Shown here one piece after another: positions 47,080 through 49,976 of a stretch of 64,000 nucleotides of DNA (the stretch's first letter is position 1; each line of letters starts with the position of its first letter). The position numbers and the translations under genes were made by a program. Origin of the DNA: Peptococcaceae bacterium CEB3 (GTDB taxonomy: Bacteria > Bacillota > Desulfitobacteriia > Desulfitobacteriales > Desulfitobacteriaceae); assembly GCA_001029295.1 (NCBI GenBank), contig LDXJ01000063.1:1-64000 (forward strand), given 5' to 3'. The notes under the pieces were generated by a model, which was not told the DNA's origin, made no database searches, and saw nothing but the letters and a program-made list of their open reading frames with translations.

Positions 47080-47168
47080 CGCCAGGTGGAACTTAAGGAG
47101 GGAATCCTTCTCCCCCGTCGGTCCGGCAGCTCGGTCCGGCCGGGGAGATGAAGAAAGGGGCGGTTTGC

Positions 47169-47792
47169 ATGTATGTCAGGCAATTCATGTCCACTCCGGT
47201 CATAACGGTTCACCCCAATGACACCATCGCGGATACTATTGCTCTAATGAGAGAGAAGAAGATCAACCGCTGCCCGGTCGTGGAGAAGGGCAGGGTGGTC
47301 GGGTTGGTCACCGACGGGGACCTGAGAGAGATTTCCCCTTCTCCCGCGACTACCTTGAGTATTTTCGAGCTGAATTACTTGGTCGCCAAGACCGCAATTA
47401 GGGAAGTTGCCGTCAAGAAAGTCGTTACTTGCACTCCGGACACCCTGCTTGAGGATGCGGCTCTGTTGATGAGGGAGCACAAAATAGGCGGCCTGCCGGT
47501 GACAGAAAACGGACAGCTGGCCGGAATCATAACTCAGACCGACGTTTTTGACGCTTTTCTGGATGCCCTTGGTTTCCGCAGTCCGGGTCAGCGTATTGTC
47601 GTGGAAACCAAAGATGAGGTGGGAGTGATTTCCGACATGTCGGAGACGATCAAGAACTATAATGTCAATATTGCCAGCCTGACGATGTTTCACCGCTCAG
47701 GCGATATTGTTCAGATCTTGGCTCGACTGAACGGGACCAGAGCTGACGAGGCAATACAGGCCCTGATTGCAAAAGGATATCGGATCGAATAA
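47169..47792 (+). CDS. CBS-pair and ACT domain protein (AcuB-like)
   Basis: 207 residues from ATG 47169 (AAAGGGG eight bases upstream); an in-frame ATG lies seven codons earlier. Two CBS motifs occupy residues 1-135 (FMSTPVITVHPNDTIADTIALM; KVVTCTPDTLLEDAALLMREHKIGGLPV), and an ACT-type domain follows (VVETKDEVGVISDMSETIKNYNVNIASL). Such proteins sense adenine nucleotides and amino acids; AcuB of Bacillus has this layout. Location after liv suggests a regulatory link to branched-chain amino acid uptake or use. Confidence 0.88.
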   Translation: MYVRQFMSTPVITVHPNDTIADTIALMREKKINRCPVVEKGRVVGLVTDGDLREISPSPATTLSIFELNYLVAKTAIREVAVKKVVTCTPDTLLEDAALLMREHKIGGLPVTENGQLAGIITQTDVFDAFLDALGFRSPGQRIVVETKDEVGVISDMSETIKNYNVNIASLTMFHRSGDIVQILARLNGTRADEAIQALIAKGYRIE

Positions 47793-47857
47793 CCCGCTCA
47801 AGGAAACTCGGCCGGCGCCTAGCCTTCGGCGAAGGCGGCAGACGCAAGTTTTCTTAC

Positions 47858-47879
47858 GAAAATGTCCTTACGCATTTTC
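47858..47879 (+). terminator. Stem-loop after the liv/CBS operon
   Basis: GAAAATG (47858-47864), eight-base loop, CATTTTC (47873-47879), then a T-rich stretch ATTCTACTTTTTG. Likely a weak terminator; a second GC-rich hairpin GCCTTCGGCGAAGGC precedes it at 47822-47836. Confidence 0.55.
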
Positions 47880-47959
47880 ATTCTACTTTTTGAACGGATA
47901 GTTCATCACTGTTTCTTAATATGCTTTCCTTATAGGGGAGTTATACTTATACTTTGAGA

Positions 47960-47995
47960 AAGGAGCACAGCAAGGAGCACAGCAAGGAGCACACG
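47960..47995 (+). repeat. Three tandem 12-bp repeats, each with a Shine-Dalgarno core
   Basis: AAGGAGCACAGC at 47960-47971 and 47972-47983, then AAGGAGCACACG at 47984-47995. Each copy contains AAGGAG. The array lies in the leader of the DUF2889 gene, 75-110 bp before its start. Confidence 0.8.
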
Positions 47996-48011
47996 AACAA
48001 GAACACGCGAA

Positions 48012-48036
48012 CAGGAGGGCGAATGTCGCCCTCCTG
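48012..48036 (+). terminator. Perfect 11-bp stem-loop in the DUF2889 leader
   Basis: CAGGAGGGCGA (48012-48022), ATG, TCGCCCTCCTG (48026-48036), then CTTT. Strong hairpin just after the AAGGAG repeats and 34 bp before the gene; attenuator-like, with another Shine-Dalgarno-like AGGAGG in the left arm. Confidence 0.65.
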
Positions 48037-48069
48037 CTTTAATCAATGGGGAAAAGGATGGAGTAAAGA

Positions 48070-48576
48070 ATGCATCTGTTTAATCGGTCCATTACAGTCA
48101 ACGTACAAAGCGAAGACTACAAATCGGCTCAGGTAAGAGGAGTATTTTTGGACAGTCATCATGAACTTTGCTTGGACTTCAGTGTTGATCTCGCCACCTT
48201 TGCCATAACGGCCGCTGCGGCCGAGTGGCGCAGGGCCCCTCATGCCGACTGCGGTCAAGTGGAGAAAAAGGCCGGGAGACTGGTGGGGCTTAAGCTGACC
48301 CACGGAGTGCGCAAAGAAATACAGAAAACCGTGGGACAAGAAGCAGGCTGTACTCATCTTATGGATCTTACTTTGGAGTGTGTGAAGAGTTTTGTTCAGG
48401 CACGATTCAGCCTTTTGCGCCTGACCAAATCGGAGCCGGAACTCAGCGCCTATGTCGAAGATTACCTCAAAGGTTCCTGCTATCACTTCCGCCGGAATAA
48501 GGACGTATCAGTTACTGAGGGGCCCGGGCCCAAATCCGGCAGGTCGGTTCCGGAACAGACAGGCTCCGGAACATGA
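48070..48576 (+). CDS. DUF2889 family protein
   Basis: 168 residues. The pattern MHLFNRSITVNV...GVFLDSHHELCLDFSVDL and the C-terminal half with CTHLMDLTLECVKSFVQARFSLL are typical of DUF2889, a family of unknown function. The region after residue 145 is a low-complexity tail. It has a GGATGGAG upstream sequence. No neighbour helps with function. Confidence 0.78.
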   Translation: MHLFNRSITVNVQSEDYKSAQVRGVFLDSHHELCLDFSVDLATFAITAAAAEWRRAPHADCGQVEKKAGRLVGLKLTHGVRKEIQKTVGQEAGCTHLMDLTLECVKSFVQARFSLLRLTKSEPELSAYVEDYLKGSCYHFRRNKDVSVTEGPGPKSGRSVPEQTGSGT

Positions 48577-48617
48577 ATGAGCGCCAGTCAGTCTTTTTGG
48601 CCCTGTTTGGGATCGGC

Positions 48618-48749
48618 TCAAGCTCTGCTGTAAGCGACTAAGATTTTTTCGCTGCCGGGTTTGGTTCGATTCAGCGCCTTCTCAAGCGATTTAATTTCCG
48701 CTACTTCCTGTTCCGTCAGATTGGCGACGGGGTACGTGGTGGTTGCCAT
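48618..48749 (-). CDS. Small hypothetical protein, 43 residues
   Basis: Starts MATTTYPVANLTEQEV and ends KILVAYSRA; predicted helical. Chosen ATG (48749) follows a GGAAGGGGG ribosome-site-like run; the frame extends 18 codons further. Codon use is coding-like, with acidic/basic helix EVAEIKSLEKALNRTKPG. I do not recognise the family. Confidence 0.6.
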   Translation of the reverse strand: MATTTYPVANLTEQEVAEIKSLEKALNRTKPGSEKILVAYSRA

Positions 48750-48929
48750 CGGTTTTTCCCCCTTCCTAAAACATTCACTTTTATTCTGACCCGAAAGGGG
48801 CAAAGATATACACTAAGAACTTGAAGAACTTGCTCGGGCGAGGGCAAGCGGAGCAAGCAAGAATTTGTCCGGGCAAGAGTAAGCGGCGAACTTCGAGTGA
48901 ATTAGCCTGCGGGGAAGAGGAGATTTTTT

Positions 48930-49976
48930 ATGTTTTCTAAGCTCGTTTCAATCTGCAAGTTCGTGCGCACGGTTTTTCCGCTGGTTGACCGGGAGCTGGA
49001 AGGTTGGAAAAAACGTGCTGGGGAAATTCCCGACAGAGAACTGAGGGACCAGGCCCTGGCAAGTTTGGCGGCAAAACGTTTCCATGCCCAAGGCGGAGCG
49101 GTTTATGCGCTTTACCCGGGACTCAACGCCGCTCAGCGGCGGGAGTTGGTCGGGTTCATCGTCGCGTATCAAACGATCAGCGACTACTTGGATAATCTAT
49201 GCGACCGCGCGGGAGTGGAAGAAGCCCGGGCCTTCAGACAACTTCACCTGGCGATGGATGAGGCGCTCCATCCCGATGTCCCGCTCTCCGACTATTATGC
49301 CAACTATCCTCATCATAGCGACGGGGGGTATCTGAAGACTCTGGTTCAGACTTGTCGAGACCGCCTGGGCGATTCCGTCCCCTCCCCCTTGTTGTCTCAG
49401 ATGAGGCATTGGGCTGCTCTCTATTCCGAACTGCAAACGTATAAGCATATTTCCCCGGCCGAGCGGGAGCAGGCCCTCTCTCGCTGGATTGCTTCGCTTG
49501 CCCGGAACTGGCCCGAACTGTATCCTTGGGAAATCGAAGTCGCCACAGGCTCCACCCTGGGGATATTTTATTTCGCGGCGTTGGCGAAAAAAGGCGTTGG
49601 GGCCGCTCAAGCGGGGGAGGAGGCTTACTTTCCCTGGGTGCAGGGATTCCATATTCTACTGGACTACTTCATCGACAGGCAGGAGGATTCGGAGCATGGC
49701 GATCTGAATTTCGTGCGAAATTATACGGATGATAGTGAGATAGGTCAAAGACTCTGCCTGTTTTACCAAAAGTCCGGGGACCACGTCCGTCTCCTCGCTT
49801 ACCCAAGGTTTCACAGCCTTGTTCTTGAGGGGCTCGTGGCCATGTATTTGTCGGATCCCAAAGCCTCTCAAGGGAAGAACAGGCCGGTCACTTTCAGCGT
49901 ACTGGCACAAGCGGGTGGCTTTGCGCGTTTGATCTTCGCAATGAGCCGGCTCCTGCGACGGAAGCGAATTATTTGA
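48930..49976 (+). CDS. ytpB: Tetraprenyl-beta-curcumene synthase family protein (YtpB, DUF2600)
   Basis: 348 residues, all-helical. The DUF2600 motif YQTISDYLDNLCDR (about residues 75-88) supplies an Asp-rich metal-binding site, and DYFIDRQEDSEHGDLNF is the second conserved acidic region. In Bacillus YtpB makes the C35 terpene tetraprenyl-beta-curcumene from heptaprenyl diphosphate and was the founding member of a terpene-synthase class unlike classical ones. It stands convergent to the prenyl diphosphate synthase gene that could supply its substrate. Product identity is inference. Confidence 0.88.
   Translation: MFSKLVSICKFVRTVFPLVDRELEGWKKRAGEIPDRELRDQALASLAAKRFHAQGGAVYALYPGLNAAQRRELVGFIVAYQTISDYLDNLCDRAGVEEARAFRQLHLAMDEALHPDVPLSDYYANYPHHSDGGYLKTLVQTCRDRLGDSVPSPLLSQMRHWAALYSELQTYKHISPAEREQALSRWIASLARNWPELYPWEIEVATGSTLGIFYFAALAKKGVGAAQAGEEAYFPWVQGFHILLDYFIDRQEDSEHGDLNFVRNYTDDSEIGQRLCLFYQKSGDHVRLLAYPRFHSLVLEGLVAMYLSDPKASQGKNRPVTFSVLAQAGGFARLIFAMSRLLRRKRII

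Follow-up and report, generated by a model that had tools for sequence, protein, structure and literature searches.

Short tandem units in the gaps between genes are familiar in bacteria as intergenic minisatellites or VNTR arrays. Direct repeats that are likewise intergenic and lie upstream of start codons have been described in Beggiatoaceae, where reportedly 169 sets of one heptamer (TAACTGA) occur in one genome, mostly near a start codon and with little Shine-Dalgarno character, and a role in translation has been proposed for them (PMC4679880). A different kind of upstream element is the standby site of tisB, which is reported to have been shown experimentally and to serve a sequestered ribosome-binding site (PMC7708055). 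Here we show how a purine-rich tandem array and a neighboring hairpin, located in the gap between two genes, compare with these systems.

Genomic context

The window, that is, the whole stretch of 64,000 nucleotides that was analyzed, comes from Peptococcaceae bacterium CEB3, an acid-loving sulfate reducer. The gap is bounded upstream by a gene whose product contains two CBS domains and downstream by a DUF2889 gene (Table 1); the first-pass annotation had placed a DUF2889 gene 3′ of the hairpin, and the match to PF11136 bears this out. The genus was sampled by two genomes, this one and that of the sister species Acididesulfobacillus acetoxydans (NZ_LR746496.1). The CBS proteins of the two species are identical at 210 of 214 residues, and the DUF2889 proteins share 85% identity across residues 1–150.

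Two dispersed repeats are also present in the gap. On contig C21, repeat 1 occurs at three sites spaced about 90 bp from one another, and no counterpart of repeat 2 was seen at the same place in the alignment to A. acetoxydans. A literature query combining Desulfosporosinus with repetitive extragenic palindromic returned no match. Beyond the DUF2889 gene, a small ORF of 61 residues is found on the minus strand (48618–48803); a similar one is near DUF2889 in the sister species and, as judged by eye, in other relatives.

Table 1. Features in and around the CBS–DUF2889 gap (positions are those of the window)
Feature	Position	Strand	Basis
CBS-domain gene, upstream neighbor	47148–47792	+	ORF, 214 aa; PF00571, E 1e-33
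Dispersed repeat 1, copy	47800–47856		many copies in this genome; also in other genera of the family
Dispersed repeat 2, copy	47873–47917		sequence search and alignment to sister species
Tandem array, 12-bp unit × 2.8, AAGGAG in each copy	47960–47993	+	TRF (period 12) and sequence
Perfect 11-bp hairpin, 3-nt loop, terminator-like, weak tail CTTTAATC	48012–48036	+	fold and alignment to sister species
Extended −10-like motif TGCTTTAAT	48035–48043	+	5/6 match to TATAAT, TG one base before; putative promoter
Likely true Shine-Dalgarno of DUF2889, GGATGGAG	48056–48063	+	6 nt before ATG; same in sister species
DUF2889 gene, downstream neighbor	48070–48576	+	ORF, 168 aa; PF11136, E 3.7e-19

Two further observations concern other loci. 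Between 35983 and 36073 of the window are three separate copies of a 16-bp palindrome (TGTTCCACGTGGAACA type), the second of which is altered at its center; a fourth, degenerate copy starts at about 36091, and the group resembles a ParB/Noc parS cluster. In the sister genome, two overlapping small ORFs (L006:4961–5685) that appear to resemble a toxin-antitoxin pair of the HEPN/MNT type lie between the gene for a polyprenyl synthetase and the DUF2600 gene; in the window, these two genes are separated by only 42 nt.

The tandem array

TRF delineates the array with 100% matches; the first two copies are exact, and in the third 10 of 12 positions agree, with AAGGAG starting at 47960, 47972 and 47984. 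The original description of three 12-bp repeats with AAGGAG therefore holds for the motifs and is slightly generous for the third copy, and the 17 bases that it gave between array and hairpin correspond to 16–18 nt, according to the end point assigned to the third copy. The array contains no ATG, GTG or TTG, and its end is 62 nt from the true Shine-Dalgarno sequence of DUF2889. It is the sole exact tandem run of such size in the window (period 8–30, match run of at least 22), and when the window was simulated 20 times with a first-order Markov model, no such run arose at all. The pentamer AGGAG occurs 101 times on the plus strand of the window. The three AAGGAG motifs are copies of one unit, and hence represent one coincidence rather than three.

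An array is also present at the same place in A. acetoxydans, with a 16-bp unit repeated 5.3 times or, alternatively, a 32-bp unit repeated 2.7 times, such that the units of the two species differ in both length and sequence. The A. acetoxydans array carries AGGAG at just two sites; by eye, AGGAA, AGAAG or TGAG stands in the remaining units. At the DNA level, similarity between the two species starts at 47985, inside the third copy of the array, which suggests that the sequence separating array and hairpin is older and that the exact 12-bp copies are a later expansion in this lineage. Unit length and number thus change between close relatives (12 bp × 2.8 versus 16 bp × 5.3), as in bacterial minisatellites, whereas a Shine-Dalgarno-like sequence kept in orthologous leaders, the pattern of a standby or decoy site, was not found. 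Among 20 leaders from outside the genus, all have at most one AGGAG, mostly near the start codon. Short arrays were detected by TRF in three of these leaders (L045, L056 and L059), none with an AGGAG unit, and imperfect longer repeats were seen by eye in the L050 leader.

The array pattern was found at no other place in six genomes, the 12-bp-unit pattern also missing the sister's own array, and a dispersed regulatory element was rejected on the lack of a second place in that search. Elsewhere in the sister genome, another repeat-like stretch of comparable composition shows a loose resemblance (L071:1501–1566, E 0.007). A coding repeat was rejected as well: the 60-codon frame that opens at TTG 47954 is not expected to be kept, and the 16-bp unit of the sister species shifts the frame. 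Long plus-strand frames of 63 and 76 codons also cross the sister array; such frames can arise without coding because the array is nearly free of T.

The hairpin

The perfect 11-bp hairpin carrying AGGAGG that had been noted downstream of the array is confirmed, with AGGAGG at 48013–48018 and a predicted stability of −20.9 kcal/mol (z −7.1). It exceeds chance, though other such stems exist in the window: seven perfect stems of at least 9 bp (loop 3–8), three of them of at least 11 bp, compared to means of 1.25 and 0.1, respectively, in 20 simulated windows. A. acetoxydans shares all 18 stem bases in the outer 9 bp and also the tail CTTTAATC, while the inner seven bases match at three positions. 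Identity to the sister species at fourfold sites is 84/102 in the CBS gene, 38/55 in the DUF2889 gene and 88/110 in the upstream ABC gene; the chance of 18/18 identical stem bases is roughly 0.03 to 0.001, calculated by hand as powers of 0.82 and 0.69. The conservation of the stem, as aligned in one species pair, is modest evidence that suggests constraint.

With its stable, GC-rich stem-loop, the hairpin resembles a Rho-independent terminator. The T run falls short, with 4 T in the 8 bases of CTTTAATC, and a terminator scan that needs at least 5 T in 8 did not list the hairpin at 48012–48036. Because of this T run, we term the hairpin terminator-like and do not class it as a Rho-independent terminator. 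A terminator needs pairing and not particular bases, and the identity of 18/18 exceeds what a terminator demands; stem-base identity would suit a DNA operator equally.

Promoter-like motif and Shine-Dalgarno sequence of DUF2889

The motif TGCTTTAAT begins with the last two bases of the hairpin and is present in both genomes of the genus, with its hexamer at −32/−33. A TGN preceding a near-TATAAT hexamer, the arrangement of an extended −10 element, is thus seen in both species; the expected frequency of this motif class is 0.007 per 33 nt, for a motif that was noticed after the fact. The hexamers located 16, 17 and 18 nt before TTTAAT (AGGGCG, GAGGGC and GGAGGG) are all unlike the −35 consensus TTGACA, and a sigma-70 scan of 47100–49000 returned two sites, both on the minus strand, and no plus-strand site. 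The true Shine-Dalgarno sequence is predicted to be 0.23–0.25 unpaired in three transcript contexts.

The CBS–DUF2889 gap in relatives

Leaders were examined at 22 of 30 DUF2889 loci (L037–L066), with L054 (contig start) and L060–L066 (weak matches) omitted. A CBS-like gene, as recognized by a simple motif, is upstream of DUF2889 in 18 of the 22, this genus included, and a lenient scan found a hairpin of −16 kcal/mol or lower with a T-rich tail in the gap of all 18. Passing the cut-off of that scan (−8 kcal/mol) means little by itself because 90 of 360 resampled leaders also pass; the observed hairpin beats all 20 of its own resamples in 15 of the 18 leaders. In the other three (L039, L040 and L056), one of 20 resamples does as well as the observed hairpin, and their best hairpins may be dispersed repeats.

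In genus g6, the hairpin begins 100–120 nt and ends 62–83 nt before the start codon in 10 of 12 CBS-bearing leaders, the hairpins of L045 and L050 ending further off; in the present genus it ends 33–34 nt before ATG. Of the 22 leaders, 12 have an exact TATAAT 5′ of the start, at −66 to −45 in 11 of them, and ten lack it, including the two of this genus. The likeness of these hairpins across relatives is one of positional homology only.

Proposed explanation

From the layout of the gap in relatives together with TGCTTTAAT, we take the hairpin as the counterpart of a CBS terminator that the DUF2889 promoter directly adjoins and that lies beside a fast-changing minisatellite, an explanation that we hold with about even confidence. 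By position, the hairpin would correspond to the one resembling an intrinsic terminator that is found 3′ of the CBS gene in relatives, and it would end the CBS transcript, perhaps leakily. The motif at its 3′ edge would double as the extended −10 element of DUF2889, and the resulting leader would be about 20 nt long, with GGATGGAG as an ordinary Shine-Dalgarno sequence. The array would be a neutral, fast-turning minisatellite in a gap that also carries dispersed repeats, and its Shine-Dalgarno appearance a by-product of the G/A-rich unit. The weak T tract, the lack of a −35 element and the listing of neither terminator nor promoter by simple scans run counter to this explanation. On this best reading, the array and the hairpin are real but ordinary features, and are unrelated to each other.

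Alternative explanations

The hairpin could instead act on a longer transcript. The first-pass annotation had suggested that it attenuates the DUF2889 gene; its sense that the hairpin matters is in keeping with the conserved stem bases, whereas the layout in relatives fits a terminator abutting a promoter better than attenuation. In this alternative, which we consider rather unlikely, the DUF2889 transcript would start upstream of the array or result from CBS readthrough, and the hairpin would tune DUF2889 as an attenuator or an mRNA-stabilizing element. A stable stem that is conserved in the sister species is what such an element would have, and TATACT hexamers at 47942 and 47948 (−128 and −122) could provide an upstream start. 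These hexamers are not kept in the sister species, where the nearest sequence is TGTACT (read by eye, since this counterpart lies further up than the last 130 nt of the leader in which near −10 motifs were listed), and the sigma-70 scan gives them no plus-strand site. The whole leader also folds no better than its shuffles (z −1.2), and no Rfam family exceeds its gathering score in 47700–48200 (best E 0.26). A known RNA family was rejected from the same region, as Rfam 15 yielded only STnc390, on the minus strand, with 18.3 bits versus a gathering score of 50. Alternatively, the palindrome might be bound as DNA by a regulator, as an operator that overlaps the DUF2889 promoter at its −35 region; we regard this as distinctly improbable. 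Conservation of all 18 half-site bases with a spacer that is not conserved, and the adjoining −10-like motif, argue for it; a search of 11 genomes within two mismatches returned only this site and its sister counterpart, which argues against. With three mismatches, this genome has no further sites, compared to eight per strand for a control pattern, and the sister genome has five more per strand versus four for the control, a slight excess being possible there. An operator of a regulon was rejected, with a single copy in each of the two genus genomes and none in the nine others; a single copy is compatible with autoregulation of one gene, which would not need more. Finally, the AGGAGG of the stem could serve a small leader ORF that is coupled to DUF2889 and has its ATG (48023, in AGGAGG-GCGA-ATG) within the loop of the hairpin. 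The Shine-Dalgarno-like sequence and an ATG are at a usable spacing in both species by eye, but the ORF has 37 codons running into DUF2889 here (the end of ORF 47954–48136) and only five, MALLL, in the sister species (the end of ORF 2781–2972), differing in peptide and frame, and the Shine-Dalgarno-like bases are predicted to be buried in the stem (about 0.001 unpaired), such that we consider this ORF extremely unlikely.

For the array, the first-pass annotation had proposed a ribosome decoy or standby site through its AAGGAG copies. We consider this very unlikely, and the proposal finds no support in the comparison: the unit and most AGGAG motifs are not kept in the sister species, and none of 20 other leaders has more than one AGGAG. 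The array would be mostly unpaired if transcription began at 47955 (predicted mean 0.67), and the true Shine-Dalgarno sequence is partly paired, a situation that a standby site would help; a standby role is thus physically possible, without comparative support. With transcription from the CBS stop codon, the array is predicted to be less open (0.43), and a promoter at 48038 would leave it outside the mRNA. The proposal is further weakened by the lack of a start codon in the array and by the derivation of its three Shine-Dalgarno motifs from one unit. In a variant of this proposal, the purine-rich array would recruit ribosomes or an RNA-binding protein as a stretch whose length can be tuned, repeat number setting DUF2889 expression. 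Turnover of the unit would be tolerated, only G/A richness and openness upstream of the conserved hairpin mattering; we judge this variant to be highly improbable. CsrA is a protein that binds GGA motifs. Its regulation of the GGA repeats was rejected, as PF02599 is found in neither of the two genus genomes (98.5% and 97% complete, with draft or MAG-like gaps possible) and in 3 of 14 control genomes.

The preferred explanation, a terminator-like hairpin abutting a promoter beside a minisatellite, carries a caution for similar loci: when Shine-Dalgarno-like motifs recur within a single tandem array, they amount to one coincidence multiplied with the unit, and in this case one sister species is enough to show that the motif has not been retained. 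The conserved palindrome and abutting −10-like motif offer a small, testable case in which a terminator-like hairpin and the next promoter would share bases.

Comparison with known systems

Like the standby site of tisB (PMC7708055), the array would provide single-stranded RNA 5′ of a ribosome-binding site that is itself partly closed; the two differ in that the unit of the array lacks conservation and might be absent from the DUF2889 transcript. The array shares with the TAACTGA repeats of Beggiatoaceae its composition of direct repeats in an intergenic region upstream of a start codon, and differs in being a single array with Shine-Dalgarno-like units 62 nt before the true Shine-Dalgarno sequence (PMC4679880). 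The gap as a whole resembles the terminator-then-promoter arrangement of family relatives, with a stable stem after the CBS stop codon, a −10-like hexamer and the DUF2889 Shine-Dalgarno sequence, except that the T tract is weaker and the hairpin ends 33–34 nt from the start instead of the 62–83 nt of most g6 leaders. Compared with bacterial minisatellites or VNTR arrays, the array is likewise made of short intergenic units that differ in length and copy number between sister species, and the Shine-Dalgarno-like content of its unit is the sole difference.
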